From the IMG/VR virus record IMGVR_UViG_3300011114_000961, positions 1 to 64,000 of that record: a stretch of DNA of 64,000 bases. One strand, written 5' to 3'. Positions within the stretch are counted from its first letter, which is position 1. Each line of letters opens with the position of its first letter. The notes beneath the pieces were generated by a model. It was not told the DNA's origin and made no database searches. It worked only from the letters and a program-made list of their open reading frames with translations. A program made the position numbers and the translations under genes. The stretch comes from a virus. Of this stretch, positions 20,082 to 61,599 are shown in pieces.

Positions 20082-20401
20082 TGAATCTCAAACCTGCTGC
20101 TGTGAGCAAACTGCGTGAGCTGATCGCAGAAGAAGCCAACCCTGCGCTCATGCTGCGTGTGTTTGTGCAAGGCGGCGGTTGTTCAGGATTCAGTTATGGA
20201 TTCACGTTTGATGAAATTCAAAACGAAGATGATTTTGATTTCAACTACGAAGAAGTGCGAGTGGTAGTAGATGCCATGAGCATGCAATATCTACAAGAAT
20301 CAGACATTGATTACAAAGAAGATGCCATGGGTGCCAGCTTTGTGATAAAAAATCCCAATGCAGTCAGCACCTGCGGCTGCGGCAGTAGTTTTTCAGTTTA
20401 G
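20081..20401 (+). CDS. A-type iron-sulfur carrier (IscA/ErpA/HesB family)
   Basis: 106 residues. The three cluster-binding cysteines are in [11 protein letters not shown] and the C-terminal CGCGSSF, separated by about 64 residues as usual for the family. A-type carriers deliver Fe-S clusters to target enzymes. The radical SAM protein at 36448 is one possible client in this window. It starts on the last base of the SOD stop and its stop overlaps the convergent fibre gene's stop. Confidence 0.92.
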
Positions 20402-21864
20402 TCGCCGCCACCACCGCCAAAGCCGCCACCAGCGACGCCGCTGCTGCCTTCTCCCCTGCCTGGTCCACCACCTCCACTTGGTTGCGGTGGTGGAGAGTAA
20501 ACGTATGGACTGGACCGCGGAACCATACCCCAATCTCCGCTGATAGTTTCAAAATTAGTAGTTTGTTGGCCGGACACCTGGGTCCAGGCCCCATTTTGTT
20601 TGATATAAATTGCATTTGTGATTTTCCAAGTGCCTTGATCATTCACATAAACTTCCTTGGTAGCATAATAGGTACCAGCTTGATTTACAAACACCCCAGG
20701 AACATTCATGTATATCACTGCATATCCATTGCCCCCACGTTCGCCGTTTGATCGCCCACCTTGTCCAACTCCAGCTGGTACTGAGATTCCTGACTGTCCG
20801 CCGGGTGTTCGACCACTGGGATTAAATCCATTTGGATAGGCAAAACTCCAGCTGGCGCCAGGGTTTCCTGCTTGTCCACCAGTATCGCTAGCACCCGGCC
20901 ACCCGCCATATGCTCCACCATTGCCACCTCCGCCAGTGCTGCCATTGTATCCTCCGCCACCACCTCCGCCAGCGCCGCCGTCACCTGGATGACCTGCTCC
21001 TGATTCACCATTGAACCCTGTGGTAGTTTGGCCGTTGGGCCCAGGACTGCTGCCACCTGGGCTAGGATTACCTGCCCCGCCGCCGCCACCGCCGCCGGCA
21101 GCCACGCCCTGCAATAGCCCATTTTGTAATAAAACAGTTGCCCCGCCGCCACCACCACCACTACCGCTAGCACCTCGTGATCCTGAATTGCCGCCCGGAG
21201 CACCTGAAAAACTAGCCCCACTGTTGATCGATACAGCCACTCCAGCGGGTCCTCCACCGGAGTTATAACCTACAATACGTAAAGTATGAGAACCGCTGGT
21301 TATTGTAATATTGTTAATTCTTGAACCGTTATAACTTCCGCTGGAAGATGCCACAGCAATCCCATCTATGTATACTGTGCCATCGTCATCAAATGCTGTC
21401 TGCAAAACAAATACACCAGTGAATGGCACAGAAATAGTGGTAGAGACATCAAGCGTGTAAGCACCATTGGCATTCCATACAGCATAGGCGTTCATGAAAT
21501 TGCTCCAGGCGTAAGGTAAACTCACTGCAATCAATCCATTTGTTCCAGCCAATTGTCTTGTGTTGAATACGCTATACCCAACATAGCTAGATCCTCCTGA
21601 TCCTCCACTTACTCCGCCGCCGCTGAGCCCGCCACCACCGCCGCTGCCCACTGCCAGTGTAATAACATCAGCAGTGTTGCAAGCAATTGTGGCAATCGAA
21701 AACCCGCCACCACCTCCTGCGCCTCCGGGGCCAGAATCGTTCCCGCCGCCACCACCACCACCGCCCCAGAGATGTGCAGTAAGTTGAGCGTCAGGAATCA
21801 ACGGATATACCGTGAGTGTTTGTAATGAATTTGTATACCCTACCGGTCTAGATATTATTGGCAT
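20398..21864 (-). CDS. glycine-rich tail-fibre adhesin
   Basis: 488 residues. N-terminal WGGGGGGGG tract, then a beta-sandwich-like region (about 100-210) with [20 protein letters not shown] resembling PA14-like sugar-binding folds, a long polyglycine region (about 215-350) made of GGGGG loops as in adhesins of T-even phages, two repeats of the type [10 protein letters not shown] (about 380-410), and a Pro/Gly-rich tail. Such adhesins sit at fibre tips and decide host range. It follows the 860-residue fibre gene by 12 bases on the same strand. Confidence 0.82.
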
Positions 21865-21876
21865 TATAGATTTGTA

Positions 21877-24549: not shown

Positions 24550-26733
24550 ATGACTCAGCAATACATTGACACTGGTAATACCGCCAATGACGGCACCGGT
24601 ACCCCTTTGCGTGACGCTTTTGATATCTGCAACAGTAATTTTACTGAGTTGTACGGTATTGGCGGCGTAACTGGTATTCAAAACGGCAATTCAAACGTAC
24701 AAGTAATTACCAACAGTACTGTAAACATCAGCAGCAGAGGAGTTGCCAATGTGTTTGTGGTGTCTGGAACCGGCGCCACATTAACTGGATTATTCACCGG
24801 CAGCAGTATTATCAGTGCAGTTGGGAATGTTGTAACCAGCGGAAAATTCATAGGCGATGGCAGCGCATTAACTGGAGTTGTATCCAGTCCAGCAGCCAGT
24901 TTGATCACAGGCAGTACATTGAGTTCGAATGTGACTACCAGCAGTTTGACCACAGTGGGTACTCTGGGCAGTTTGACTGTGACCGCCAATGTGCAAGGCG
25001 GTAATTTGCGAACAGCCGGGCAAATCACATCAACAGGCAATGTCACTGGAGGTAATTTAATTGCAACCAGCGCATTGATTGCCACTGGCAATGCATCTGG
25101 CGGTAATTTGCAAACAGCTGGACAAGTTTCAGCCACCGGTAATATTACCAGTGCTGCCAATGTCACAGCAGCGTATTTTGTAGGGAATGGCAGCGCATTA
25201 ACTGGAGTGAGTGCTACCACCTCTGCTGCTTTATTAACTGGCGCTACTTTGAGTTCAAATGTGACTACCAGCAGTTTGACCAGTGTGGGGACACTAAATT
25301 CTCTTGCAGTAAGCAATGCGTTAGGCGGAACAGGAAATGTCACTGCCAACAATGTCAATGCCACCATTGCTGTGTCGGCTACTGGAAATATTCAAGGTGG
25401 CAATTTAATAACGCTAGGAGTGATATCTGGCGCAAGTGCTGTTCTTACTGGTGATGTTTCGGGTGCCAATGTCACTGCCAATCTCACAGGCGGCAATGTT
25501 GCTGGCAACAATGTCAATGCCACAACATTGGTAACAGGTGCAAGACTCAGTGCCACAGGCAACATCACCGGCGGCAATTTACTCACTGCTGGATTGATCA
25601 GCGCCACGGGCAACATTGCTGGCGGCAATTTAACTGGAACAATTGTTACGGCAGCACAACCCAATATTACCTCAGTAGGTACATTGAGCAGTTTGACAGT
25701 CACTGCCAATGTTACTGGCGGCAACGTACTCACTGCCGGCGTGATATCTGCTGCCGGCAACATCACTGGCGGCAATATCACTATCGGTAATGTAACCAGT
25801 GGCAATGTTATTAACACTGGACTGGTACAAGCTGCAATTTTATCAGCCAGTGGTAATACTACAGGTGGCAACTTGATCACACCAGGCGTAATTTCGGCTG
25901 TGGCCAACATCACTGGCGGTAATTTAGTCACAGGTGGTGCATTATCAGTTTCAACCACCATCAGCGCCGGGGGCAACATCACAGGTGGTGGTAATCTCAG
26001 CATAACTGGTAATATCATTTCCAGCGGTACAAGTACTGCAACCAGTTACAGCACCACAGGCAACATCACAGGTGGCAATGTATTAGGCGGAGCCAATGTC
26101 AACGCTACCACTCACACAGGTACCACTGTGTCAGTAACTGGCAACATCACTGGTGGCAATGTGCTGGGCGGAGCCAATGTCAACGCTACCACTCACACAG
26201 GTACCACTGTGAGTGTGACAGGCAACATCACAGGTGGCAATGTATTAGGTGGAGCCAATGTCAATGCTACCACTCACACAGGTACCACTGTGAGTGTAAG
26301 TGCTAACGTAACAGGTGGCAACATCTTGACAGGTGGATTAATCTCAGCCGCTGGCAACATCACAGGTGGTAATCTTATTGTTGCTGGAATTTCAGGAGCA
26401 CTAACCACAGCATCACAGACCAATATTACCGCAGTTGGTACATTGGGGACATTGAGTGTTACCGGCAACATCACAGGTGGCAATGTGTTGGGCGGAGTCA
26501 ATGTAAATGCAACTTCATTGACAGGTACTACAGTTAGTATAACAGGTAATGTAATCAGCAATAACATTCAAGCCAGTAATAGTATAACCGCACTAAATGC
26601 CACAGTGTCAACTCAACTGGTGATACCGTTTTTCTCATCTGATCCAATCAGTGCAGAATCGGGTAGTTTATATTACAGTACTGCACTGGGTGTACTAAGA
26701 TTTTACAATGGCGTTGCCTGGGTAACTGTTTAA
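24550..26733 (+). CDS. tail-fibre protein with TGNITGGN repeats
   Basis: 727 residues. The N-terminus QYIDTGNTANDGTGTPLRDA with FTELYG is a common attachment domain of myophage fibre proteins. Residues 75-680 are repeats built on [ST]-x-TGN-[IV]-TGGN-[LV], suggesting a beta-helical or trimeric shaft. The C-terminus has FSSDPISAESGSLYYST and LRFYNGVAWVTV, the typical trimer-end motif. Three near-identical 81-base units lie at 26056-26298. Late promoter upstream. Confidence 0.88.
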   Translation: MTQQYIDTGNTANDGTGTPLRDAFDICNSNFTELYGIGGVTGIQNGNSNVQVITNSTVNISSRGVANVFVVSGTGATLTGLFTGSSIISAVGNVVTSGKFIGDGSALTGVVSSPAASLITGSTLSSNVTTSSLTTVGTLGSLTVTANVQGGNLRTAGQITSTGNVTGGNLIATSALIATGNASGGNLQTAGQVSATGNITSAANVTAAYFVGNGSALTGVSATTSAALLTGATLSSNVTTSSLTSVGTLNSLAVSNALGGTGNVTANNVNATIAVSATGNIQGGNLITLGVISGASAVLTGDVSGANVTANLTGGNVAGNNVNATTLVTGARLSATGNITGGNLLTAGLISATGNIAGGNLTGTIVTAAQPNITSVGTLSSLTVTANVTGGNVLTAGVISAAGNITGGNITIGNVTSGNVINTGLVQAAILSASGNTTGGNLITPGVISAVANITGGNLVTGGALSVSTTISAGGNITGGGNLSITGNIISSGTSTATSYSTTGNITGGNVLGGANVNATTHTGTTVSVTGNITGGNVLGGANVNATTHTGTTVSVTGNITGGNVLGGANVNATTHTGTTVSVSANVTGGNILTGGLISAAGNITGGNLIVAGISGALTTASQTNITAVGTLGTLSVTGNITGGNVLGGVNVNATSLTGTTVSITGNVISNNIQASNSITALNATVSTQLVIPFFSSDPISAESGSLYYSTALGVLRFYNGVAWVTV
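26056..26298 (+). repeat. three tandem 81-base repeats in fibre gene
   Basis: Each unit encodes 27 residues with TGNITGGNVLGGANVNATTH and TGTTVSV. The copies differ at a few silent sites. Copy number could change by slippage and alter fibre length. Confidence 0.85.
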
Positions 26734-26737
26734 TATT

Positions 26738-29700
26738 ATGGCACAACCAGTTTGGATTTCTGAAGCAGGTCTTTTGGGAGTTATTCCCGAAGGAGTATTT
26801 TATCAGTCTACTTTGGTTGCAGCCACTGATGCATTGCCATTGAACGTCACATGCACTGCCACAGATGCAGTGACCAATACCATAACTTGCAACAGTACCG
26901 AAGGACTGTATCAAGATATCAATGTGATGTTTGAAGGTGCAGTATTCGGCGGTTTAGATCCTTATGTAAGATATTTTGTGTTGGATGTGATCAGCAGCAC
27001 AAAATTTAGAATTACCACAACAGAATTTAGCAATGTTCCATTACAATTGACCACAGCAACAGGAGTCATGACTCCGGTGTTTAGGCAACATGTTTATTTT
27101 GCTCTCATAGCCGGAAATTTGCCGTTGGGTATTCAATGTGCAGACAATGGGTTGATTGTTGGAGTACCACAGGCTGTGGCCAGTTTGCAAGGTGTGCCAT
27201 TTCAGGTCAACAGAGATGTGGTCAGCAAATTTGCCATTCGAGCATATACCAAACTTGCCAACGGTTCAACTGATCGTATAAAAGATCGAACATTTGAATT
27301 GGTAGTCACTGGCAACAATGTACCTGATTTTATTACACCACCTGGATCCATTGGTACATTTTATGACAGCGATCGTGTGGAGTTTCAGTTTGAAATTTTA
27401 GGGACTGACCCTGGCGATACCAACATAGTCACGTTGGTATCGGGTGAATTGCCCGGTGGACTTTCTATCTCGCCCTTGGGGCTATTGTCAGGCTATATTG
27501 CACCCAGTGTCAATGTTGATAAACCGCCAGGATATGATCTCACACCAGATTTCACTGTGCCATACGATTTTATATTCAGTGCTATCAACAAAAATTTTGA
27601 ATTTACATTGCAGGTGTCTGACGGCAAGAGCCAGAGCCAACGTACTTTTTACATGTATGTGTATGATCGAGCCAGTCTCACTGGCGATGACACTATATTT
27701 ACAGCTGATACTACCAGTATTACCAGTGATGAAACGCCATATCGCCGACCTTTCTTGATCAATACGTTACCTAGCGATCTTGGCAAGGTTCGAAGTGACA
27801 ACTATTATGCTCATCAATTCAGGGCCAATGATTATGACACTAGTGATTTAACTTATACCATAGCTGTAAATCAAGGATCAGGATTTGCACCTGGACTGGG
27901 ATTGGATCCAACATCTGGATGGTACTATGGTTATATTCCCAATCAAGGTGTTACAGAAGTAACATACAGTTTTAATATCTATGCTCGGCAAACTGACACA
28001 ATAGGAACGGCCATCACTTGTACTGCTACCACAGCAGGTACCAATGTGATAACTTGTACAAGCCCTACACAACTAGGTCCAGGCACAGCTATTGTATTTT
28101 CAGGTACGGTATTTGGTGGCGTGAGTTCTTCTTCAACCACAATGTATTTTGTAAACACAGTGGTCAGCGTCAATGAATTTATCACTGAATTTACAGTGAC
28201 CGCAAACATGATGCTCAATCCCAACTATCCAGGAGAGCTACCAGTTTACATACCTGATGGCAACCCTGTGATTTTGACAACAGCATCGGGCTCAATGACT
28301 GCCAGCCTGGTGGTGCCCAGTGATCCATATCCGTTTACCATCACAGTAGTGGGCGAAGTTGATACTGAAGTTACCTGGAATACACCTGCTGATTTGGGCG
28401 TGATTGAAAATGGATCTACCAGTATACTCAAAATTGAAGCGGTCAATCGCGGTGGTAGAGAATTATCTTACAGGTTGAAAAGTGGAGCCTATAATTTGTT
28501 ACCGCAAGGACTTGAACTACTTCCCTCTGGAGACATAGTAGGCAGAACCACTTTTAATACATTTGCTATAGATTTAGGAAATACTACATTTGATAAAAAT
28601 CAGGCATCTTTACTAAACACCTCCATTGGCGAAACTGTGTTTGATACCAAATTTACCTTTACTGTCAATGCCTATGCTGTGGACACAGGTCAACCCACAT
28701 ATGACGTGGTGGGGGTCACAGTGGCCGACGGCGGATCTGGATACAGCAATGTAAACCCACCTGTATTGCAATTTAACTCACCAATTGGTGCTACGGCACA
28801 ACCGGCTGTGGCTGGTGTTGTGACACTGGATGGTGGCGTGATTACTGCGGTAGCAATAGATGATTTCGGGGCTGGATACACCGAACCAGCTACGTTGACA
28901 ATAACAGCTGGTTACGGTGGATCTGGTGCTGTGTTAACTCCGGTCATGCGGTTGACTGGAGCAGTGGATGTGGTCAGTGTGTTCAAAACATTCACAGTCA
29001 CAGTAAATAGAGTATACAACAAACCTTATCAAAATCTCAGTGTGCAGGCCATGCCACCGTTGAATGACCGAGTATTGATAGACAGTTTACTAAGCAACGA
29101 CACTATTTTTGTTCCTGATTACATTTACAGGCCCGATGATCCAAATTTTGGCAAGAGCCGTCGAGTGATTTATCAACATGCATTTGGCCTGGCGCCAGAC
29201 TCTTTGGATACCTATGTCGGCAGCTTGTACGAAAATCACTATTGGAAAAATTTAGTACTGGGCGAAATTGCAACTGCACAGGCAACTGATGAACTTGGCA
29301 ACGTAATATACGAAGTGGTCTATTCACGCATAATTGACGATCTTACCAATGCAGCCGGACAAAGTGTAAGCAAGATTGTGGCGTTGCCTTATGCAATTAC
29401 AGATCCTGCAGATGGCAGCAGTCAAATCAATGTGGTCTACCCCAACAGTTTGCAAAACATGCGAGATCAAGTGATTGATGTGGTAGGACAAATTTCCAAT
29501 AAATTGCCATTATGGATGACCAGCAAACAAGCCAATGGTCGAGTGTTGGGATTTACGCCAGCTTGGGTAATATGCTATACACAGCCCAATCGTTCTAAAC
29601 AAATTGCCTATTACATACAAACACAATTTGGAGTGCAACTGAATCAAGTAGATTTCAAAGTAGATCGATACGTACTTGATTCTACCTTGAGTAAAAACTG

Positions 29701-30643
29701 GGATACCGCCACACAAGATTGGACGCCAAAGCCCAGCTTGACCACATTCGATCGTTACGCCAGTATAGATCTTCAAGCGTTGGGACCGGTCACTTACGCC
29801 ACTCGCCTGGCATTTACCGATGTCAATGCCAGATCAATTGATTATATCAATAATTTAGGTGGCATCGACGGGCTAATTAACGCTGCACTTATTGATGGTG
29901 CCACATTGATTTTTGCCAAACAAGAAGCATTTGATGATTATGCTACCACAGATGATGCCTGGCAATATTATACTGCCACCTACAGCAGCGGACCATATGC
30001 TCCAGAAACTCCGGGCACAGGATACGATGCCTCAACCACAGTGGCCGGCGGCAGCACAGTATCATGTACAGCCACTGTGGCAGCAACTGATCGTGTGACT
30101 TGTGTTAGCACAGTTGGCATGACTGCTGGAGACGCAATATGGTTTACCGGCGATGATCTGTCAGGCTTGGTGTCAGGCACTACCGATGCCTTAACTGGAA
30201 TAATTACTGCATTCAATATTTTAACTGTAGACGATCTTACACATTTTACGTTAGAAGATCCGGCCAATCCAGGAACTGCGTATGCATTGTCAAATGCCAG
30301 TGGATCAATGACTGCTGGGTTTAATAATCAACGCATGGGAATTTGGCTGGTATCTGTGAGTTCTGAAGGCATAGTGACATTGACTCTAAGTCAACAAACT
30401 GGGCAAAATCAATATGTGACTGTTGACCAAGGAGTGCAATATCATGGCACTCAATTGTACTTTGCTGGTAGTCCTCCGCCGGGACTGACTCGTGTGACAT
30501 GGACCACAGTGACGGAAAGTTCTAGCACACAAACTATATTTGACGAAGGCAGCGTGGCCTGGATTGAACCCGTGGATATGTATGATCCAACAGATACCTA
30601 TGATAAATATCTGGTATTTCCCAAGGCTAATATCTTGGTTTAA
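26738..30643 (+). CDS. large virion structural protein with Ig-like domains
   Basis: 1301 residues. The opening AQPVWISEAGLLGVIPEG and repeated segments such as FALIAGNLPLGIQCADNGLI and GELPGGLSISPLGLLSG match the 'putative Ig' type of domain (PPGL...GL..G.P) used in phage baseplate and fibre proteins. Two similar cassettes, near residues 30-115 and 425-530 and again near 1120-1200, contain ITCTATTAGTNVITCTS-like strands. The C-terminus ends in YLVFPKANILV. Probably a baseplate-to-fibre connector; four bases separate it from the fibre gene before it. Confidence 0.8.
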   Translation: MAQPVWISEAGLLGVIPEGVFYQSTLVAATDALPLNVTCTATDAVTNTITCNSTEGLYQDINVMFEGAVFGGLDPYVRYFVLDVISSTKFRITTTEFSNVPLQLTTATGVMTPVFRQHVYFALIAGNLPLGIQCADNGLIVGVPQAVASLQGVPFQVNRDVVSKFAIRAYTKLANGSTDRIKDRTFELVVTGNNVPDFITPPGSIGTFYDSDRVEFQFEILGTDPGDTNIVTLVSGELPGGLSISPLGLLSGYIAPSVNVDKPPGYDLTPDFTVPYDFIFSAINKNFEFTLQVSDGKSQSQRTFYMYVYDRASLTGDDTIFTADTTSITSDETPYRRPFLINTLPSDLGKVRSDNYYAHQFRANDYDTSDLTYTIAVNQGSGFAPGLGLDPTSGWYYGYIPNQGVTEVTYSFNIYARQTDTIGTAITCTATTAGTNVITCTSPTQLGPGTAIVFSGTVFGGVSSSSTTMYFVNTVVSVNEFITEFTVTANMMLNPNYPGELPVYIPDGNPVILTTASGSMTASLVVPSDPYPFTITVVGEVDTEVTWNTPADLGVIENGSTSILKIEAVNRGGRELSYRLKSGAYNLLPQGLELLPSGDIVGRTTFNTFAIDLGNTTFDKNQASLLNTSIGETVFDTKFTFTVNAYAVDTGQPTYDVVGVTVADGGSGYSNVNPPVLQFNSPIGATAQPAVAGVVTLDGGVITAVAIDDFGAGYTEPATLTITAGYGGSGAVLTPVMRLTGAVDVVSVFKTFTVTVNRVYNKPYQNLSVQAMPPLNDRVLIDSLLSNDTIFVPDYIYRPDDPNFGKSRRVIYQHAFGLAPDSLDTYVGSLYENHYWKNLVLGEIATAQATDELGNVIYEVVYSRIIDDLTNAAGQSVSKIVALPYAITDPADGSSQINVVYPNSLQNMRDQVIDVVGQISNKLPLWMTSKQANGRVLGFTPAWVICYTQPNRSKQIAYYIQTQFGVQLNQVDFKVDRYVLDSTLSKNWDTATQDWTPKPSLTTFDRYASIDLQALGPVTYATRLAFTDVNARSIDYINNLGGIDGLINAALIDGATLIFAKQEAFDDYATTDDAWQYYTATYSSGPYAPETPGTGYDASTTVAGGSTVSCTATVAATDRVTCVSTVGMTAGDAIWFTGDDLSGLVSGTTDALTGIITAFNILTVDDLTHFTLEDPANPGTAYALSNASGSMTAGFNNQRMGIWLVSVSSEGIVTLTLSQQTGQNQYVTVDQGVQYHGTQLYFAGSPPPGLTRVTWTTVTESSSTQTIFDEGSVAWIEPVDMYDPTDTYDKYLVFPKANILV

Positions 30644-30655
30644 CCTGCAAACAAT

Positions 30656-31555
30656 ATGACAAGTAGCATCAACCCAAACCTCATCAATGGATCGTATCCG
30701 GTAGCTGGACAAGACAACAGCACCAAAGGCATGCGCGATAATTTTACCAATATCAAAACTAATTTTGAGTATGCTGCGTCCGAAATTACTGCATTACAAT
30801 CCAACACAGTGACCACTGGTGCCGGAGTTACCAATAATTTTGCCGGAGCATTGTTGATAGATGGTCAGATGCGAGATTTCTCTGCCACACGCTATGCTAT
30901 TGGTACCACAAGTGGCACAGTCACAATCGATTATGCCAATGGGCATTATCAGACATTGACCACATCAGGGTCGGTTACGTTGGCATTCAACAACTTTCCA
31001 GCAGCAGCACAGCAAGGTTGGCTCATAGTGCGTGTGACCGTGGCCAGCACTGCACACACTTTGACACTGCCAAGTGCAGTAGGCACTGGCGCCAGCGCCG
31101 CATCTGTGCTGGGCATACAGGGCATTGCTAGCAATGTGATCACATTTGCAGAAACCGGCACATATGAATTTCAATTCCACACAGATGATGGTGGCACAAC
31201 CATTTATCTCAGCGAACTCACTAGACCACGCAACAGATTTATCAATCCACTGTTCTTGACTGGCAGTGAAGATCTTGCAGCTAGTGCTGCTGCCAGTTTG
31301 ACAAAAACTACCAGTTATTTTACCACAGCCGCTGCCGAAACAGCCACATTGGCAGCAGGTACAACAGGGCAAATCAAAGTATTCAGCGCAGTGGCCATTG
31401 CGTCAGGCAACATGGTCATCACAGTGGCCAATGCTGGCTGGAAAGCCAGTGGCACAGGAACCATCACATTTGCCACACTTGGTTGTGGCTGCACATTACA
31501 ATATACCAATTCCAAATGGTTTTGCATTGGTAACAATGGCTGCACGTTTGCGTAA
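30656..31555 (+). CDS. tail structural protein, paralogue of the next gene
   Basis: 299 residues. The first 50 residues (SINPNLINGSYPVAGQDNST followed by GMRDNFTNIKTNFEYA) are shared with the gene at 31573, as is a beta-rich domain near 100-185. The second half is alanine/threonine-rich with a terminal Cys-containing domain (LGCGCTLQYTNSKWFCIGNN). A fibre or baseplate component by context. Confidence 0.75.
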   Translation: MTSSINPNLINGSYPVAGQDNSTKGMRDNFTNIKTNFEYAASEITALQSNTVTTGAGVTNNFAGALLIDGQMRDFSATRYAIGTTSGTVTIDYANGHYQTLTTSGSVTLAFNNFPAAAQQGWLIVRVTVASTAHTLTLPSAVGTGASAASVLGIQGIASNVITFAETGTYEFQFHTDDGGTTIYLSELTRPRNRFINPLFLTGSEDLAASAAASLTKTTSYFTTAAAETATLAAGTTGQIKVFSAVAIASGNMVITVANAGWKASGTGTITFATLGCGCTLQYTNSKWFCIGNNGCTFA

Positions 31556-31572
31556 TTGCACAAGGATCTAGA

Positions 31573-32973
31573 ATGTCAAGTAACATCAACCCAAATATCA
31601 TCGACGGAGCATACCCGGTGGCCGGACAGGACAACAACAGTCAAGGCTTCCGTGATAATTTTACCAATACCAAAACCAATTTCCAATATGCAGAAAATGA
31701 AATCAATGACCTTCAATCCAAAGTCATACTCAAAGCTGCATTGACTGGCACCACCTTGGACAACAACATGAATGATGCGCTGTTGGTGGGTGCTCAATTG
31801 CAAGATATCAGTGAAGTAAAAACAGCACTCACTACCACCAGCGGAACAGTCACTGTTGATTACACTACTGCGCCTTATCAAACTGTCAGTACCACAGGTA
31901 ACATCACGTTAGCATTTAGTAATTTTCCGCCCACTGGACAATACGGCTATGTGAAAGTGCAAATAAACATAACTGATATAACGCACACAGTAACATTGCC
32001 GGCTGCTGTCACGCTGGGCACTGGCGGTATTCAAGGATATTCTGCAGGAGTAATTACTTTCAGTAGTACTGGCTATTATGAGTTTGCTTTTGGCACCTAT
32101 GACGCCGGCACCACTATTACTATATTTGATTTGAATCGTGCATTGACCAATTTCACATCATTCTCTGTGGTTTCTTTTACTGCAACAGGTAACATTGCTG
32201 GCGGCAACGTATCAACTGGCGGAATTGTCAGCGCCACAGGTAACATTGCTGGCGGCAACGTATCAACTGGCGGAATTGTCAGCGCCACAGGCAATGTCAC
32301 AGGCGGCAACGTAACAGGGTTGATTCGTCCCGTGGCTGGTACAGTGACCAATGCGCCGATTGTGTACACTTCTGGTGTCAACCTCACTTCGGCCATTGCA
32401 GGTGCCCAAGAATATGATGGACAAGTGTTCTACGGAACTGCACAATCAAGTCAACGTGGGGTGATGCCCACTGAGCATTTTATTGTGTTGACCACCGACT
32501 ATGTTGGCAGTGACGTGAGCACTGCTCAATCAGTGTTTAATTCGCCAGCCAGCGGAACAATCACTTTGCCAGGCAGCACCAGTTACTTTTTGGAAGCAGT
32601 GTACTATATCACTAGAGCAGCCGGCACTACCAGTCATACATTAAGTACACTATTTGCGTTGGGCGGCACATTGACCAGCATTGCATACACAGCCGATACC
32701 ACATCAACCACCGGCAATGCATTAGGAACCGTAAGCCGAATCTACGCCACAGGTGCCACTGCAACTGCGGTCACAGCAGCTTCTACCACAGCCACAGAAA
32801 ATATCACAGTGACCATCAGAGGCGTGGTTCGTACCAACACAGCCGGCTCATTCACTCCGCAAATAAAATACAGTGCAGCACCCGGTGGCGCTCCTACCAT
32901 ATTGGCCAACAGTTATTTAAAATTAACTCCAATTGGTACTAATACAGTTGCATCTGTGGGCAACTGGAGTTAA
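31573..32973 (+). CDS. tail structural protein with shared N-domain and fibre repeats
   Basis: 466 residues. N-terminal domain duplicated from the preceding gene; a middle section (about 205-255) of the same TGN-[IV]-[AT]GGNV repeats as the 24550 fibre gene; and a C-terminal beta domain with a serine/threonine-rich surface ending ASVGNWS. Contains two exact 51-base repeats at 32185-32286. The mix of modules shows exchange between fibre genes. Confidence 0.78.
   Translation: MSSNINPNIIDGAYPVAGQDNNSQGFRDNFTNTKTNFQYAENEINDLQSKVILKAALTGTTLDNNMNDALLVGAQLQDISEVKTALTTTSGTVTVDYTTAPYQTVSTTGNITLAFSNFPPTGQYGYVKVQINITDITHTVTLPAAVTLGTGGIQGYSAGVITFSSTGYYEFAFGTYDAGTTITIFDLNRALTNFTSFSVVSFTATGNIAGGNVSTGGIVSATGNIAGGNVSTGGIVSATGNVTGGNVTGLIRPVAGTVTNAPIVYTSGVNLTSAIAGAQEYDGQVFYGTAQSSQRGVMPTEHFIVLTTDYVGSDVSTAQSVFNSPASGTITLPGSTSYFLEAVYYITRAAGTTSHTLSTLFALGGTLTSIAYTADTTSTTGNALGTVSRIYATGATATAVTAASTTATENITVTIRGVVRTNTAGSFTPQIKYSAAPGGAPTILANSYLKLTPIGTNTVASVGNWS
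32185..32286 (+). repeat. two exact tandem 51-base repeats
   Basis: Identical 51-base units, each encoding 17 residues including TGNIAGGNVSTGGIVSA. A partial diverged third unit follows. Confidence 0.9.
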
Positions 32974-39712: not shown

Positions 39713-40244
39713 AATGCTGGCTGAAGGCCTGCAATACAAAGACCTAGACGGCATCATGAAGCCCACCATGCATGTGGACGAATTTTCCAGCAAAATGGGC
39801 GACGATGAAGACATCATTGTGCTCAGCTTCTTTGTGCGTGATCTACAAGCTGCCAAGGACCTGATGGGTTGGTTTGAAAAGGGCTACGACTTTGTGATTG
39901 ACGCTGACCGCAGCCCCGGCGAAATCAAACCGTCACGCTATTTGGTGTATGTGGAAATACGCAGACGCAGCACAGCAGCACAGAACATACAGATCTTGTT
40001 GGACGATCTCAGCACCTTAACAGAATTTGATCCTGAAGACTGGACAGTACACTACAAAAATCGTCACTGGCCTTGGTCAGAAGAAGCTTTTGCAAAAACA
40101 GTGCCAATGACGCCAAATGAATATCGTCGCACTACCAATGGCGACCTTAACGAATGGCGTATTGCTGCTGGGATTTCTCCCAAGCGCATACACGAAGTGC
40201 AGGATGATGTTCGTGCATTACAATCTATTGCGGGGTTGATATGA
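39693..40244 (+). CDS. conserved T4-like phage protein
   Basis: 183 residues. The core VDEFSSKMGDDEDIIVLSFF, GWFEKGYDFVIDADRSPGEI and YLVYVEIRRRS is recognisable from T4-like phages, where it is a neighbour of the preceding gene; function unknown. The start is ambiguous among 39678, 39693 and 39714, none with a ribosome site, implying coupling to the upstream gene. ATGA overlap with the mosaic protein. Confidence 0.75.
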   Translation: MNHNHNKMLAEGLQYKDLDGIMKPTMHVDEFSSKMGDDEDIIVLSFFVRDLQAAKDLMGWFEKGYDFVIDADRSPGEIKPSRYLVYVEIRRRSTAAQNIQILLDDLSTLTEFDPEDWTVHYKNRHWPWSEEAFAKTVPMTPNEYRRTTNGDLNEWRIAAGISPKRIHEVQDDVRALQSIAGLI

Positions 40245-41614
40245 GACTACGAGAATTTGATGAAAAAGAACGGCTATTAAAAGCCAACGAAAAATTAACA
40301 AAATACAAAACTGACGCAGGTGCCGACGCCGCAGCAGCAGACGCAGCGGGCAATTTTGCTCGCGGTCACAAACGTTTTAAAGGCATAAATGCTGCTACCA
40401 TAAAACAGTTTGATAATGATGCCAAACTAGCTAAATTGAAAGATCTAAACAAGCAAGGTGTGGCGGAGAACGCAGAACTCAAGAAACGAAAACGTGCCTA
40501 CAACCAGGCTGCTAAAGATGCCAATGCTGACCAAGTGGGTGCAGGCAAGAAGATTGACACAATGAAAAACAGTCTGCGTCAAAAAGATATCAACAAACAA
40601 AGTGTGGCGGAAGGCATGCGAAAGTGGCTGGTGATTCATAGTGGATCACATGGTGAAGGTGGCAAGATGACTATTGACGCTCCTGACTTTGAAGCAGCAT
40701 GGAAATTGGCCAACGAATATGATCTAGACATCATTGACATCAAACCAGTCAAAGGTGTGGCGGAGGAGTGGAGTCAAAAGTACAAGAATTCAATCAATTG
40801 CAGCCACCCCAAAGGTTTCAGCCAAAAGGCGCACTGTGCCGGTAAACAGAAGCACAATGAATCAATTGAAATGGAAATGGTGTGTGAAGACTGTGGCATG
40901 TGTCAAACACACGGCAGTCTAAACGAAATTAAAAAGGGCGAGAAAGACAGCAATGGCTACACTCGTTGCTGGCCAGGCAAGCATGCCGAAGGCACCAAAA
41001 CAGGCAAAAATGGTGGGCAAGTTCGCAACTGTGTGCCCAACGAAAGCATAGAGGAAAGCGAAGAAAACCGCTGTCGCCAATGTGGCATGATCAACTGCAA
41101 GTGCCCTGGTGATAGTTGCAAGTGCAAGCCCATTGCAGGATGGATTCCCAACAAAGGATTCAGAAAAGCTGCAGAGCAAGTGGATGAAGATCAACTGGAC
41201 GAACTTTCAAAAGACACATTAAGAAATTACGTTCGAGCACAACCCGCTAGAATAAAAGGCCCTGCTGGATTGGCCACAACCAATAACAAAAAAGCCGCGC
41301 GAATAGTTAACCGTGATATACCTCGAGCCCTGGACAAATACAAAGATCCTGCATACGGACAACAGGGCATGGCGGAATCCAATGTATTCACTGATGCTAG
41401 AATGAATGCTATCAAAGCCGACCAAGACACATTTGTAGTACATGGAAAAACATATCAGGTCACCGGCGACACCACAGACGAGAGACAAGCAGGATTAGCA
41501 GAAGATTCACTTGCGGCCATGCGTCGACTGGCCGGTGTCACAACGCCGCCTGCAGCCGCACCTAATGGTCCACGTCAGTATCGTCACATGCCCACAGCGG
41601 TGCAACCACGATGA
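40241..41614 (+). CDS. mosaic cassette protein with VAE-type linkers, likely internal virion protein
   Basis: 457 residues, starting MRLREFDEKE. Short unrelated cassettes are separated by near-identical linkers: KQGVAENAEL (about 72), KQSVAEGMRK (about 122), VKGVAEEWSQ (about 171), QGMAESNVF (about 383). Several cassettes are Cys-rich (NCSHPKGFSQKAHCAGK, VCEDCGMCQTHG, RCRQCGMINCKCPGDSCKCK) and may bind zinc. V-A-E fits the [ILV]-x-E consensus of T4-type prohead protease, so this may be a packaged precursor cut into pieces. Inference only. Confidence 0.7.
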   Translation: MRLREFDEKERLLKANEKLTKYKTDAGADAAAADAAGNFARGHKRFKGINAATIKQFDNDAKLAKLKDLNKQGVAENAELKKRKRAYNQAAKDANADQVGAGKKIDTMKNSLRQKDINKQSVAEGMRKWLVIHSGSHGEGGKMTIDAPDFEAAWKLANEYDLDIIDIKPVKGVAEEWSQKYKNSINCSHPKGFSQKAHCAGKQKHNESIEMEMVCEDCGMCQTHGSLNEIKKGEKDSNGYTRCWPGKHAEGTKTGKNGGQVRNCVPNESIEESEENRCRQCGMINCKCPGDSCKCKPIAGWIPNKGFRKAAEQVDEDQLDELSKDTLRNYVRAQPARIKGPAGLATTNNKKAARIVNRDIPRALDKYKDPAYGQQGMAESNVFTDARMNAIKADQDTFVVHGKTYQVTGDTTDERQAGLAEDSLAAMRRLAGVTTPPAAAPNGPRQYRHMPTAVQPR

Positions 41615-41778
41615 AACGCACTGCCAATGGCCGCCCTATACGTCCACTGCCCGGTGCGCCCATCCGACTTGATGCACCAGCAGGTCCTGAAACGCCGCAA
41701 ACATCTGAACGTCAACAACGCAAAGTGCGTAGATCCACCAGAATGATCCCTATCAGTATGTCATTTCGAATGCAATGA
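41611..41778 (+). CDS. 55-residue basic Pro/Arg-rich peptide
   Basis: Begins MKRTANGRPIRPLPGAPIRL and ends with several Met/Arg (STRMIPISMSFRMQ). Joined by ATGA overlaps at both ends, which supports translation. Likely disordered; could bind nucleic acid inside the virion. Confidence 0.65.
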   Translation: MKRTANGRPIRPLPGAPIRLDAPAGPETPQTSERQQRKVRRSTRMIPISMSFRMQ

Positions 41779-42410
41779 GAGCTGAAGATTTCCAAATACA
41801 CGACCACGACAAACTAGATCGCATACTTGCACAGTTATGCGAAATGGTCATTCGCGGCCAACAACAGAATCCTGATCTGGGCATGGTGGCTGCTGCGGTG
41901 CTGGATCCTGACAATCAATGCATAGCCAGCATCAATCATCCCAGTGACACTGGTCATCGTGTGCATGCTGAACGTGCTGCTATCAATGCTTACACTCAGC
42001 AGTTTGGCGCTGTGCCCAGGGGCAGCATAGTGATCACCACGCTGAGTCCTTGCAGCGAACACATGGACGAACGTGACGGCGCTCCTTGTACCGATCTCTT
42101 GCATGAACACGGCATACACAAAGTGTACTGCGGCTATCAAGATCCCACACAACGAGTCGGCCACAAGCGATTTCACACCGAATGCACAAGAAATCGCAAA
42201 CTGCATGAACTGTGCCATCAGTTTGCTGCCACATTCTTGGAGCCCACACAGCAACTGGATGAATTGAGTTTCTTAGGAAGCCCTTGCACCAAAGATTGTT
42301 CGGGACACAGAGCCGGATATCGTTGGTCCAAGGCCCGCGGCAACGTTCATGCTGCCAGCTGGTCTGACAGTTTCAACCGCGGTGCAGCGTTGGCTGCGGC
42401 CGGCAGATAA
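41775..42410 (+). CDS. cytidine deaminase-fold protein fused to a Cys-rich cassette
   Basis: 211 residues. HAERAAI (about 65-71) and TLSPCSEHMDERDGAPC (about 90-106) give the zinc-binding HAE and PC...C of the deaminase superfamily, closest to RibD or dCMP-type members. The C-terminal 50 residues (LGSPCTKDCSGHRAGYRW and GNVHAASWSDSFNRGAAL) form a separate cassette I also associate with phage virion-protein modules, after an IPTQQLDEL-like linker. Might deaminate a nucleotide; the fusion suggests packaging. Confidence 0.75.
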   Translation: MRAEDFQIHDHDKLDRILAQLCEMVIRGQQQNPDLGMVAAAVLDPDNQCIASINHPSDTGHRVHAERAAINAYTQQFGAVPRGSIVITTLSPCSEHMDERDGAPCTDLLHEHGIHKVYCGYQDPTQRVGHKRFHTECTRNRKLHELCHQFAATFLEPTQQLDELSFLGSPCTKDCSGHRAGYRWSKARGNVHAASWSDSFNRGAALAAAGR

Positions 42411-43198: not shown

Positions 43199-44158
43199 AT
43201 GCACATCAAAAAAATACTGGCTGTTTTGATTTTGTTACCAGCAATGGCATTGGCCTGGGAACCCACTAAACAAATTACTGTGATATATCCAAACGGTCCG
43301 GGTGCGGGCAATGAAATAAGTTTTAAAATTGCAGCAGATATCGTGGAACGCAACACCGGCGCAAAATTTGTATCTGACTATCGGCCAGGTGCTGACGGTA
43401 ATCTCGCCACTAATTATTTCAACACAGTGGCCAATGACGGGCACACTGTGTCGGTGCCTGCTTGTAACAGTCAATGGGTCACAGCCGAAATATGGTATCC
43501 ACAGCTGATCAAATACAATATTTTTGAATTTGAACCAATTGCTAACATTGCCAAAAGCCCGCTGGCGTTCTGGGCTCATCCCAGTAGCCGAGTAAACACA
43601 CCTGAAGAATTGATAAATGAAATTCGATCCAAACAAAGACCTATCAATTTTGCCATTGGTGGCGGCGGACACAAACTAGCAGTAGAATACTTGACCAGCA
43701 AATTGAATGTGTCAGGAGATCGAGTAGAAACTGTGATGTACAAAGGTCCGGCACAAGCACTATTAGATGTAATGGGCGGGCATGTGGAGTTTGGAGTGAC
43801 TCCGGTGGCAGTGGGATATCCTTATGTACCGGCGGGCAAATTGAAGTTGATTGGACTAGCAAGTGAAGTACCTATTCACGGATTGGAAAAAACACCATTG
43901 ATGAAAGATTACGCACCGGGACTAAACATTTATGGTTGTTGGAATCTTATACTGCCAAAAGGCACGCCAAAAGACATACAAGACTGGTATCGCGCCAACT
44001 TCATACCTGCCATCAACAGTCGAGAAGCCAAACAAAAGTTTGATGAAAACATGATGTTCACAAATCCCAAAGAGCACACAGCTGAGGGATTAAATAACAG
44101 TATGATTAAATTACGCAAAGAATGGCAACCCATAGCACAACGATTCAAACCTGAATGA
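43199..44158 (+). CDS. tctC: TctC/Bug-family periplasmic solute-binding protein
   Basis: 319 residues. An N-terminal signal peptide (MHIKKILAVLILLPAMALA) targets it to the periplasm. The mature part follows the tripartite tricarboxylate receptor pattern: PTKQITVIYPNGPGAGNE at the start, GADGNLATNYFNTVANDGHT, FEPIANIAKSPLAFWAHP, GGGGHKLAVEYL, MGGHVEFGVTPV and NLILPKGTP. In bacteria this receptor binds carboxylates such as citrate and feeds TctAB. No transporter genes are nearby, so it would act with the host system or serve another role. AAGGAG site and late promoter. Confidence 0.92.
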   Translation: MHIKKILAVLILLPAMALAWEPTKQITVIYPNGPGAGNEISFKIAADIVERNTGAKFVSDYRPGADGNLATNYFNTVANDGHTVSVPACNSQWVTAEIWYPQLIKYNIFEFEPIANIAKSPLAFWAHPSSRVNTPEELINEIRSKQRPINFAIGGGGHKLAVEYLTSKLNVSGDRVETVMYKGPAQALLDVMGGHVEFGVTPVAVGYPYVPAGKLKLIGLASEVPIHGLEKTPLMKDYAPGLNIYGCWNLILPKGTPKDIQDWYRANFIPAINSREAKQKFDENMMFTNPKEHTAEGLNNSMIKLRKEWQPIAQRFKPE

Positions 44159-50153: not shown

Positions 50154-50939
50154 ATGAGTGATTATTATGACACCCTGGGTGTACCGCGCACAGCATCTGC
50201 TGATGACATAAAAAAGGCCTATCGTCGGTTGGCCAGTCAGCATCATCCTGACAAAGGTGGTGACACTGCCAAATTCCAACAAATCCAAGCTGCTTACGAA
50301 ACACTCAGCGACGATCAAAAGCGAGCAGCCTACAACAATCCGCAGCAACACACACAGCATTTTGGTGGTGGATTTCCGGGCAATCCGTTTGATCTCAACA
50401 ACATATTCAGCCAAATGTTTGGCCAGCAGATGCATGCCCAACAACAGCAACAGCGCCGTCAGGTCACCATGAACTTGTGGATATCGCTAGCCGATGCCAT
50501 ACGCGGTGGTGCAAAAACTGTGAGCGTGAGCACTGCTGTGGGCACTACCACTGTGCAGATTGACATTCCTCGATCCATTCAAGACGGCGACAATGTGCAA
50601 TACGGTGGCATAGCACCTGGCGGTATGGATCTGATTGTGCAGTTTAGAATCAATCCTGATCCAGTTTGGCATAGAGATGGATTCAACCTGCATTGCGAAC
50701 GCAAAGTGGACATTTGGAAACTGATCCTGGGCTCAGATGTTGAAATACACACACCCACTGGCAGTACACTGAGCATGACTGTGCCACCGCGCACACAACC
50801 AGGTTCGATCATGCGATTGAAAGGTCAGGGCTTGGTCAGCAAAGATGGACCGCCTGGCGACATTTTGGTACGCATGCAGGCTCGAATTCCTGATGCCATT
50901 CCCGATGCATTGTTAGATGCCATCCAACAACACCAATAA
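50154..50939 (+). CDS. dnaJ: DnaJ/CbpA-like J-domain co-chaperone
   Basis: 261 residues. The J domain is complete: [20 protein letters not shown], then HHPDKGGD with the HPD motif at about residues 33-35 and [14 protein letters not shown] Gly/Phe/Asn-rich linker and a C-terminal substrate-binding domain (about 105-255, with [10 protein letters not shown] and [14 protein letters not shown]) follow. The zinc finger is missing, so it is of CbpA type. It would stimulate host DnaK, possibly in concert with the ClpA next door. No Shine-Dalgarno sequence. Confidence 0.92.
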
Positions 50940-51011: not shown

Positions 51012-53273
51012 ATGGCACACGAAATCGAAAGCATTGTTGACAACGCTGTAAAAATAGCTAAAGAAAAAAGTCACGAATATGTGATGACCGAACACTTGTT
51101 ATTGGCCATGCTGCGCCAAGGACACTTCCGTAGACTGGTTGAACAGTTTGGCGTGGAAATAGACATGCTGGATCAAGAGCTGGATGCATACTTGAACAGT
51201 CTGATGAACCTGGTCAAGACAGGTGATGTACAGCCCAAAAAAACACAAAGCCTGGAACGTGTGTTCAATCGAGCCAACGTGCAGGTCATGTTCACTGGCC
51301 GCAGAGCCATGAACCTGTTGGATGTGTATCTCAGCATCATGGCCGAAACCAACAGCCATGCACACTACTTTTTGCTCAAGTACGGGATGAAGAAGTCTGA
51401 GTTTGTGGAATTCTATCAGAAAAATCACACACAGGTAGACAGCAAAATGACATCCAATCAAGCAGACGAAGTACTGACCGAATACTGTACCAGTCTCACT
51501 GCACAGGCCGCTGCCAATCAATTGGAACCGCTGATTGGTCGTGCAACTGAACTGGAAGAAATGATTGCTGTGCTGGCACGTCGTTTCAAAGCCAACGTGC
51601 TCATGGTAGGCGATCCTGGTGTGGGCAAGACCTGCATTGTGGAAGGACTAGCACAGGAAATCAATGCAGGGCGTGTGCCCGAGTTTCTCAAAGGCTACGA
51701 AGTATGGAGTTTGGAAATTGGTAGTTTGCTGGCCGGAAGCAAATACCGCGGCGAGTTTGAAGAAAAACTCAAGGTGGTACTGGCAGCCTTGGAAGCCAAA
51801 AAGAACTGCATCTTGTTTGTGGACGAAGCACACACCATGAAAGGTGCAGGTGCAGGCAGTTCGGGAAGCAGTCTAGACTTTGCCAACATGCTGAAACCAG
51901 CCATCACACGTGGCACACTCAAGGTTGTGGCCAGTACCACCTGGGAAGAATTTTACGAGAGCTTCGAAAAGGATCGTGCTCTCATGCGCCGTTTCTACAG
52001 GTTGTCGATTGACGAACCGGACACTGCGACCACTGAAAAGATCCTGATCGGGCTCTCACCCAGACTGGAAGCATTCCACAATGTCATGATCGACACAGCG
52101 GCAATGACCACTGCTGTGGAACTGGGCAATCGATACATTCACGATCGAAAGAATCCTGACAAGTGTATTGATCTGTTGGATGCAGCCTGTGCCCGAGAAC
52201 GTGTTCGAGATGCAGGCACCGCGACCATCACTAAAGAATTGATTGAAGCACAAGTGGCCCGTGTGACAGGTGTGCCCACAGATCGATTGCAGAATGAGCG
52301 ATCAGCCAAGATTGTGGATCTTGAAAGCAATATCAAACAACATCTCTACGGGCAAGACGCTGCGGTGGATGCTGTGTTGGATCGTGTGTACATCAACTTC
52401 TCAGGTATTGGCAACGAACGACGGCCCATGGCCAGTTTCTTGTTTACGGGGCCCACTGGCACAGGCAAAACTGAATTGGCCAGACTGTTGAGCCAGCACC
52501 TGGACATGCCATTGTTGAAATACGACATGAGTGAGTATCAAGAACGTCACAGTGTGTCAGGCTTGATTGGTGCACCTCCAGGCTATGTGGGATTTGAGGA
52601 CGGCAACATAGGCGGCGGCAAGTTGATCGCCGACATCAGCAAGAATCCCTTTTCTGTGATCTTGTTTGACGAAATTGAAAAGGCACATCCAGATGTCAGC
52701 AACATCTTGCTGCAGATGCTGGACGAAGGTGTGTTGACCAGCAGCAATGGCAAAAAGGCCAATGTGAAGAACTGCATCATTATCATGACTTCAAATCTGG
52801 GTTCCAGGGACAGCGAAAGCAATGCCATCGGCTTTGGCTCACAAGAAAAGACCGGAGAAGAAGACCGTGCCATGAAAGAGTTCTTCAAGCCCGAAATGCG
52901 TAATCGTATTGATCAAGTGTGTAAGTTTGTGAAACTGGATACTTTGGCCATTAAAAAGATTGTGCTTAAATTTGTGGATGAGCTCAAGACCAGTTTGGAA
53001 AGCAAACGCATACGCTTGGTGTTGACAGAGCCCGTGATTGATTACCTGGCTGAAAAAGGCTATGATAACAAAATGGGTGCAAGACCCCTAAGCCGCAAGA
53101 TTGATCAGTTGATCCGTGTGCCATTGAGCAAGCGGATCCTGTTTGATCGACTGACCGATTGTGATATCACTGCAACACTAGTGGATGATCAAGTGCATTT
53201 TGAAACTCAAGCACATGTGATTCCTGTGGTAGATGTAGATGGCATCATTAGATTCCCAGCAGCAGGCACTTGA
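51012..53273 (+). CDS. clpA: ClpA-type AAA+ unfoldase
   Basis: 753 residues, close to E. coli ClpA (758). Order: Clp N-domain (about 1-140, YVMTEHLLLAMLRQ), AAA-1 with Walker A GDPGVGKTC near 200 and LFVDEAHTMKGAG, AAA-2 with Walker A GPTGTGKTE near 480 and LFDEIEKAHPDV. A tripeptide Ile-Gly-Phe near residue 605 (AIGFGSQ), at the position of the ClpP-docking loop of ClpA/ClpX/ClpC, is present; ClpB lacks it. No long M-domain coiled coil. The partner protease is probably the ClpP at 106-699. Confidence 0.95.
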   Translation: MAHEIESIVDNAVKIAKEKSHEYVMTEHLLLAMLRQGHFRRLVEQFGVEIDMLDQELDAYLNSLMNLVKTGDVQPKKTQSLERVFNRANVQVMFTGRRAMNLLDVYLSIMAETNSHAHYFLLKYGMKKSEFVEFYQKNHTQVDSKMTSNQADEVLTEYCTSLTAQAAANQLEPLIGRATELEEMIAVLARRFKANVLMVGDPGVGKTCIVEGLAQEINAGRVPEFLKGYEVWSLEIGSLLAGSKYRGEFEEKLKVVLAALEAKKNCILFVDEAHTMKGAGAGSSGSSLDFANMLKPAITRGTLKVVASTTWEEFYESFEKDRALMRRFYRLSIDEPDTATTEKILIGLSPRLEAFHNVMIDTAAMTTAVELGNRYIHDRKNPDKCIDLLDAACARERVRDAGTATITKELIEAQVARVTGVPTDRLQNERSAKIVDLESNIKQHLYGQDAAVDAVLDRVYINFSGIGNERRPMASFLFTGPTGTGKTELARLLSQHLDMPLLKYDMSEYQERHSVSGLIGAPPGYVGFEDGNIGGGKLIADISKNPFSVILFDEIEKAHPDVSNILLQMLDEGVLTSSNGKKANVKNCIIIMTSNLGSRDSESNAIGFGSQEKTGEEDRAMKEFFKPEMRNRIDQVCKFVKLDTLAIKKIVLKFVDELKTSLESKRIRLVLTEPVIDYLAEKGYDNKMGARPLSRKIDQLIRVPLSKRILFDRLTDCDITATLVDDQVHFETQAHVIPVVDVDGIIRFPAAGT

Positions 53274-54899: not shown

Positions 54900-55652
54900 A
54901 TGAAACAGTTAGTACTAATTTCTGGCGGCTTCCACCCTTTTCACCCAGGGCACTTATCACTTTATCAAGCCGCAAAGGCAACATTCCCTGGTGCCGATGT
55001 GGTTGTGGCAGCTACCAACGACACCAGTTCAAGACCGTTTCCATTCAAAATAAAACAAAAATTAGCACAAGTATCTGGAGTGCCACCTAGAGATTTTGTC
55101 GAAGTGTCTAGACAATTCAATGCTATGGAACCGGCAATTGCCAGAAGGATTAAAAATCCCAATGATACTGTGTTGATTTTTGTCAGAAGCGACAAGGATC
55201 AGAATCAACCGCCATTGCCTGCTGCACTGGATCCTGCCACAGGACAATTGCCCAGGGCCAAACGTGGCCCAAACAAAGGCCAGCCAGTGAGTGATTATCT
55301 GCAATATCTTGCTGGCAACGAGGACAACATACAGCCCATGACCCAACATGCTTACATGGCCTACTTGCCCACTGAGGAATTTGGGCCAGGCATGCAATCT
55401 GCCACTGAAATACGCACAGCGTGGCCGCAATTGAACGAAAAACGTAAGGTAGCTCTGGTTATGAGTTTGTATCCTGCTACACAGACCAACCCGGCCTTGG
55501 CTAAAAATGTAGCCGGGATGCTGAACACCGCAATGGGAACCATAGCCGAAACTGCCGCACAGAATTTTGTAGGCGGCATGACGGCCAGTTACCAAGCCCG
55601 TGAAAATCAACCTGTCAACGAAGACTACGTTCAGGAAAAGACATCTGTCTAA
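54900..55652 (+). CDS. nucleotidyltransferase (HxGH superfamily)
   Basis: 250 residues. The signature SGGFHPFHPGHLSLYQAAK at residues 8-26 carries HPGH; FVRSDKD and MQSATEIRTAWPQL (the ISATEIR-like second motif) follow. These motifs are shared by NMN/NaMN adenylyltransferases, PPAT and cytidylyltransferases. A long insert (about 95-150) and C-terminal tail (about 190-250) are phage-specific. Might supply NaAD for the phage NadE, but expression appears late while nadE looks early. Confidence 0.82.
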   Translation: MKQLVLISGGFHPFHPGHLSLYQAAKATFPGADVVVAATNDTSSRPFPFKIKQKLAQVSGVPPRDFVEVSRQFNAMEPAIARRIKNPNDTVLIFVRSDKDQNQPPLPAALDPATGQLPRAKRGPNKGQPVSDYLQYLAGNEDNIQPMTQHAYMAYLPTEEFGPGMQSATEIRTAWPQLNEKRKVALVMSLYPATQTNPALAKNVAGMLNTAMGTIAETAAQNFVGGMTASYQARENQPVNEDYVQEKTSV

Positions 55653-61092: not shown

Positions 61093-61599
61093 ATGCGAGC
61101 AAGAGAATTTATTACCGAAAACTTTGCTGATGGTCGACATCCTGAAGACAAAGGTGATTCAAAACGCCATCATGTGCCCACTAAATCCAGTGTGAGCAAC
61201 TTACGCAAATTTGCTAAAAATCACTCGGGCAGGGCAGCACAACTAGCCCACTGGATGGCCAACATGAAAAGTGGCAAGCGCAAAAAGACCAACGAAACCA
61301 TAATTGGCAATCTACACTTTCCTCAGCTGACTGTGGCAATAGACGATCATGCTGTGGATCGCACACGCACACGTGGTATCAATCCACATGCCATAGATCA
61401 AAGTCTAAAGAAATTAAACGGCATTGCTGATCAGCTGGCACAGGTAGAACCCAACACACAAGTATGGGCTTATGATCCCGAAACACAACTGGGCTTGGGC
61501 ATGCGACGTATCAGCAGCCAGAACATGTTGTTCAAACTCAAAACTGTGGTAAACAGTAGGCCATTTGACGGCCCAATTCCTATCATTGACCTATCATGA
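61093..61599 (+). CDS. probable internal (packaged) virion protein with capsid-targeting-like N-terminus
   Basis: 168 residues, start set by the late promoter 5 bases upstream. The N-terminus MRAREFITENF resembles the capsid-targeting peptide of T4 internal proteins (MKTYQEFI-x-E), with F-I-T-E a possible prohead-protease site. The rest is basic (SGKRKKTNETIIGN) and has HAVDRTRTRGINPHAIDQSL, similar to toxin-like or nuclease-like small folds. Function after injection unknown. Confidence 0.7.
   Translation: MRAREFITENFADGRHPEDKGDSKRHHVPTKSSVSNLRKFAKNHSGRAAQLAHWMANMKSGKRKKTNETIIGNLHFPQLTVAIDDHAVDRTRTRGINPHAIDQSLKKLNGIADQLAQVEPNTQVWAYDPETQLGLGMRRISSQNMLFKLKTVVNSRPFDGPIPIIDLS

Follow-up and report, generated by a model that had tools for sequence, protein, structure and literature searches.

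The gene at 40241-41614 on the forward strand raises the question of why one short linker, almost unchanged, should return between protein segments of unrelated composition, and whether it has been kept as peptide, as DNA or as both. The gene was assessed within a window of 64,000 nucleotides, the whole stretch of DNA analysed here, which is part of a fragmentary virus record of 125,970 bases. We consider it probable that the product is a packaged internal head protein of the T4 type which has turned into a polyprotein, with gp21-type cleavage at the linkers and with cassettes swapped in the linker element.

Cassettes and linkers of the window protein

The ORF encodes 457 amino acids and was identified, from the ORF call and its relatives, as a cassette-mosaic polyprotein of a T4-like phage. 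It begins with a putative capsid-targeting leader, MRLREFDE (40241-40264), which loosely matches the leaders of T4 internal proteins. Cassette 1 (40265-40468; KYKTDAGADA...RGHKRFKGI...KQFDNDAK), with homologues at other positions in many loci, ends in linker 1, QGVAE (40454-40468), whose DNA CAAGGTGTGGCGGAG is an exact copy of the linker element. Cassette 2 (40469-40612; AELKKRKRAYNQAAKDANADQVGAGKKIDTMKNSLRQKD), 68-81% identical in loci L068-L073, closes with linker 2, QSVAE (40598-40612; CAAAGTGTGGCGGAA then GGC), and cassette 3 (40613-40765; MRKWLVIHSGSHGEGGK...) spans the distance from there through linker 3, KGVAE (40751-40765; AAAGGTGTGGCGGAG).

Cassette 4 (40766-40927; WSQKYKNSINCSHPKGFSQKAHC...CEDCGMC) ends in LNE and is delimited by alignment and by 59 distinct upstream contexts, all with Glu, while cassette 4b (40928-41056; NGYTRCWPGKHAEGTK...VRNCVPNESIEE) is placed by alignment. 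The Cys-rich cassette 5 (41057-41203; RCRQCGMINCKCPGDSCKCKPIAGW) ends in VDE/LDE and occurs separately in L022, L043 and L064. Cassette 6 (41204-41377; LSKDTLRNYVRAQPARIKG...), defined by the ORF and the linker position, ends in linker 4, QGMAE (41363-41377; CAGGGCATGGCGGAA), and cassette 7 (41378-41503; SNVFTDARMNAIKADQDTFVVHGKTY...) ends in LAE and is found after four different contexts, each Glu-ending. The tail (DSLAAMRRLAGV...; 41504-41611) completes the ORF. All these features lie on the forward strand.

The four linkers fit the pattern [QK][GS][VM]AE, and their DNA is near-identical. None of 100,000 residue shuffles of the ORF reached four [GS][VM]AE motifs, the maximum being two. With up to two mismatches allowed, the window contains five copies of CAAGGTGTGGCGGA, where 0.47 would be expected; all three that differ at no more than one base are inside this ORF. 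Further boundaries of the hydrophobic-x-Glu type are LNE, IEE, VDE/LDE and LAE.

Pfam and PHROGs gave almost no matches to the window protein; among the relatives' proteins they returned DUF6321, DUF192, a weak DUF5872 and ASCH. A single-sequence AlphaFold model of the whole protein had a pLDDT of 45, too poor for use.

Two genes immediately upstream of the ORF have matches among PHROG virion structural proteins, and a deaminase follows downstream. Neither Gp23 nor the S77 prohead protease had a match in the window's own 125,970-base fragment. Among the relatives' records, Gp23 was present in 13 of 20 and Peptidase_S77 in 13 of 20, about 2 kb apart, which indicates that these are T4-like phages; several of them are on contigs longer than 300 kb.

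Other genes of the window include superoxide-dismutase-like, ClpB-like ATPase (phrog_4871) and DnaJ-like genes (19539-20081, 51012-53273 and 50154-50939). The phage genome also encodes a substrate-binding protein of the TctC type with what looks like a signal peptide (43199-44158). Long low-complexity proteins with Gly-rich and TAPTAG/GNITGGN-type repeats (20398-24459, reverse strand; 24550-32973, forward strand) are probably tail fibres. Elsewhere in the same record, at 83943-102590 (L002), GTP cyclohydrolase, 6-pyruvoyl-tetrahydropterin-synthase-like and radical-SAM QueE-like genes accompany a TGT-like ORF at 83943, a set that by eye looks like deazaguanine DNA modification.

Cassette shuffling and the junction between cassettes

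The same cassettes recur in 80 related loci in varied order and number. In a homology-block analysis, an all-against-all comparison of 191 cassette proteins, blocks of at least 85% identity ended on the right within 6 aa of [LIVMF]xE in 72 of 86 cases (84%) and on the left in 60 of 74 (81%), versus 26% for random positions; 40 of the 86 right ends fell exactly on Glu. The WSxKYK cassette was found behind 59 distinct upstream contexts, and in all 59 a Glu precedes it with a spacer of one residue, with a hydrophobic P3 (V, L, I, M or F, two before Glu) in 56. Other cassettes follow the same Glu-preceded pattern, with a small number of exceptions among the contexts of FNGEYDD and DWQK.

The modular gain, loss and shuffling that the earlier note had read from the window alone is thus strongly supported, as cassettes stand in new orders across relatives, and the comparison excludes a fixed order in homologues. 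Its four near-identical linkers hold by coordinates and by the shuffles. It overlooked their conservation as DNA and their role as junctions, along with the boundaries LNE, IEE, VDE/LDE and LAE. The segments between linkers, which it took to be unrelated, have no evident mutual similarity; several are Cys-rich, as it had seen, and the majority turn up on their own in other phages. The Cys-rich cassette that it saw attached to the deaminase (ORF 41775-42410) is a C-terminal tail following LDE (42264-42407, forward strand), which is found in other phages on its own after a leader, or attached to different deaminase-like ORFs.

The exact 20-mer AGCAAGGTGTGGCGGAAGGC is present in at least 120 IMG/VR stretches, often several times per stretch. 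It is in frame at 95 of 95 sites of newly fetched loci, and the element is in frame at 164 of 169 sites in a separate count. Across 363 distinct element sites, comparison between different loci gave 126 pairs with homology confined to one side (at least 80% identity over 60 nt there, the other side being unrelated) and one pair with homology on both. At test points displaced by 90-300 nt there were 5-20 one-sided and 16-42 both-sided pairs. With identical windows retained, the counts were 307 one-sided and 209 both-sided at the element versus 10-56 and 241-329 at shifted points, the 209 both-sided pairs coming from near-identical contigs. The linker sequence is therefore a recombination junction.

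The switch in identity falls inside the element: its first base goes with the cassette upstream and its last bases with the one downstream, which places the crossovers within it. This pattern supports ordinary crossovers at short identity as the probable route, by which the roughly 20 nt of shared AGCAAGGTGTGGCGGAAGGC would allow cassettes to be exchanged in frame. Cassettes also swap at boundaries without the element, which therefore aids or records exchange and is not required for it.

That phages trade packaged effector modules by a dedicated, DNA-directed exchange, with a phage enzyme recognising a 20-nt in-frame element that at the same time encodes the protease site, has in our view a modest chance of being right. 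A mobile-cassette system would have a phage recombinase or endonuclease recognising the element, like an integron operating in frame, and would account for an element that is short and sharply limited, keeps the reading frame at almost every cassette junction and coincides exactly with the breaks. We regard this as unlikely, as no candidate enzyme was identified, neither dyad nor stable hairpin or fold was found in the 20-mer, the end bases match whichever cassette they adjoin, the result expected of ordinary crossovers, and cassettes also move at hydrophobic-x-Glu boundaries lacking the element. Homologous rather than site-specific recombination is the reading we prefer.

Leaders, and probable packaging and cleavage

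In T4, gp21 cleaves after Glu at L/I-x-E, and in the ten-residue leader residues 4 and 7 matter in targeting and residues 8 and 10 in processing (PMC9026906). The N-termini of T4 IPII and IPIII read MKTYQEFIAE. The window protein's MRLREFDE is only a loose fit to this type and was not matched by a strict leader DNA pattern; relatives sharing its first cassette start with MKPSDFLTE or MRTNEFLAE. The strict pattern gave 61 matches in 16 records versus none for the reversed pattern, and MRAREFITE, MKAYEFITE and MKTYQFITE are common leaders in these phages. Four matches are in the window's record (at 61093, 72384, 73502 and 73978), the one within the window being a protein of the same style with the leader MRAREFITE followed by an NFADG... 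cassette (61093-61599, forward strand). A looser protein-level motif was found in 31 of 142 linker proteins versus 100 of 984 neighbouring ORFs, about a twofold difference, many of the neighbours having leaders themselves.

Outside the window, three consecutive genes of the same record (72384-73502, 73502-73981 and 73978-74202; L001) carry a leader MRxxEF[IV]xE, and the first of them has QGVAENN as well as a DUF6321/phrog_4689-type cassette at its C-terminus.

Homologues in cyanophages, with the leaders MKSFKQFQE, MKTLKQFLKE and MKSFNQFLSE, are located between the terminase subunit genes or just past the major capsid protein (MCP) gene. For the S-SCSM1 homologue, from a phage whose virion was studied by mass spectrometry, the annotation reads "virion protein", and the record of the S-B43 member bears the note "T4-like structural protein ... 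GC0119". These homologues, from which the virion evidence comes, are distant and lack the DNA element.

The hydrophobic-x-Glu motif is found both at cassette ends and after leaders. P3 is often Val or Met in these phages, the published T4 P3 being Leu or Ile. In the relatives' MCPs, YLKE|NAS, LLAE|SS, YLSE|SA and LAE|TA stand where the T4 site aligns by inspection. The cassette boundaries thus fit the published T4 prohead-protease motif and the MCP cleavage sites predicted in this way.

Packaging and cleavage of the window polyprotein are likely, given the T4-type gp23, protease and leaders of the relatives, the match in motif and the virion-annotated cyanophage homologue. The earlier note's proposal of packaged peptides released by a maturation protease is in this respect well supported by the leaders, the hydrophobic-x-Glu boundaries, the MCP sites, the relatives' T4-type protease and the annotated homologue, with cleavage itself being what these features predict. 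The putative leader, loosely similar to T4 capsid-targeting sequences, would bring the polyprotein into the prohead, where the phage's gp21-type protease would cut past Glu at hydrophobic-x-Glu sites, GVAE linkers included. The small cassettes so freed would stay in the head and probably accompany the DNA into the host. T4 internal proteins are injected and block host restriction (PMC9026906, PMC12373910), and by analogy we infer that the cassettes may be injected as well.

A nucleotidyltransferase-like ORF at 54900-55652 may also be packaged cargo, since L175 encodes a longer relative (540 aa) with a linker of the GVAE type, and cyanophage virion proteomes repeatedly include NMNAT/cytidylyltransferases (PMC10665884, PMC9602691).

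Some cyanophage neighbours are annotated as tail fibre, which would suit a window protein acting outside the head, as a tail or fibre component or as a cytoplasmic polyprotein of host takeover. This appears rather improbable given the leaders resembling those of T4 internal proteins, the prohead-protease motif, and cyanophage homologues that adjoin terminase or MCP genes and include one with virion annotation. An internal head protein is the assignment that we retain.

The linker as conserved DNA, and known systems

If the linkers were preserved solely for cleavage by a protease or as flexible spacers in the protein, their likeness in DNA would have to come from ancestry and codon bias. Hydrophobic-x-Glu is indeed kept even where the DNA differs. 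Codon statistics were taken from 61 protein-selected relatives, with 46 linkers having unrelated flanks; as loci L115-L234 had been gathered via the exact 15-mer, only the protein-selected set was used here, the junction test drawing on both sets. The rarest Ala codon, GCG, occupies 36 of the 46 linkers (78%) versus 6.6% elsewhere in genes (p = 1e-32), the Val codon GTG 32 of 40 versus 19% (p = 4e-16) and the Gly codon GGT 34 of 39 versus 44%. Two synonymous versions of the 20-mer were found in 0 and 9 IMG/VR stretches.

Bases flanking exact 15-mers, although not selected for, are conserved too (-2 A 84%, -1 G 72%, +1 G 90%, +2 G 61%, +3 C 55%), so that conservation reaches 2-3 nt past the 15-mer before falling to background; a synonymous control was flat. 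In the relatives' MCP genes, fourfold third-base identity is mostly 0.4-0.6 and GCG makes up 15 of 602 Ala codons. Because synonymous sites have diverged so widely in the same phages and GCG is rare there, the identity of the linker DNA goes beyond shared ancestry alone. As a complete explanation the protein-only reading is contradicted, and we consider it very improbable. Selection may nevertheless act on the linker DNA for reasons unrelated to recombination.

The element is present in 0-9 copies per phage record, and the copies checked are all in linker-type genes. A 19-mer search of 257 Gb of bacterial and archaeal genomes gave 10 single matches, none in a recognisable cassette protein. A genome-wide or bacterial repeat was rejected on this copy number, location and scarcity. 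In one contig of 524,565 bases (G013), copies at 176507 and 176888 recur with identical spacing at 524060 and 524441, which may reflect a large repeat or a duplication made in assembly. A short selfish repeat like the Rickettsia palindromic elements, inserting in frame and suiting linkers by chance, would explain one sequence in many unrelated contexts but is scarcely credible for an element that is not palindromic, clusters in linker-type cargo genes, is in frame at almost every site and marks where homology breaks rather than being surrounded by it.

Cassettes are shuffled, homology breaks exactly at linkers, the linkers are conserved at the DNA level, and in relatives T4-type gp23 and prohead protease co-occur with them. 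Together with the protease motif, the breaks and the DNA conservation make a single short sequence both the exchange point and the probable cleavage site. In this group of environmental T4-like phages the packaged modules seem to form an exchangeable string, and the gene bears on the question of how phages assemble arsenals of injected anti-restriction proteins. The linker offers a simple sequence tag with which candidates for injected proteins can be found in large numbers, and a case in which the keeping of coding DNA as a recombination junction can be tested directly. No description of it was found in the open-access literature that was searched, where the papers listed for the linker peptide dealt with synuclein and other unrelated subjects.

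T4 IPI, IPII and IPIII resemble the window protein as proposed here in having a short N-terminal leader that ends in a Glu cleavage site, a hydrophobic-x-Glu motif and small cargo. They carry one cargo each, whereas the window type has several cassettes, repeated internal sites and a linker conserved as DNA. The cyanophage head-cluster proteins (GC 119/S-SM2_108-109, Bellamy 122-123) share cassettes with it (WSxKYK, DUF6321, KDACYHKVKSRY), as well as leaders and hydrophobic-x-Glu boundaries, but the GVAE DNA element is absent from those read. In the heads of phiKZ and SPN3US many proteins are cut past Glu at short motifs (PMC5694885, PMC9026906); there the propeptides are long, the motifs are S/A-x-E and A-x-E, and repeated cassette linkers are not described.

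In the PeSL cassettes of T4-like phages, to judge from their citation in PMC4503421, short conserved DNA between modules also mediates shuffling; a PeSL consists of a promoter and a stem-loop and therefore lies between genes, whereas the window element is part of the coding sequence of a single gene, in frame, and has no hairpin. Integrons similarly have interchangeable cassettes with a common DNA element between them, but no attC-like folded site was seen in the 20-mer, and the window cassettes are protein segments joined in frame. Databases already list the wider cyanophage family as unnamed structural proteins; what sets the present case apart is a many-cassette polyprotein in which repeated cleavage motifs are combined with a coding DNA element.
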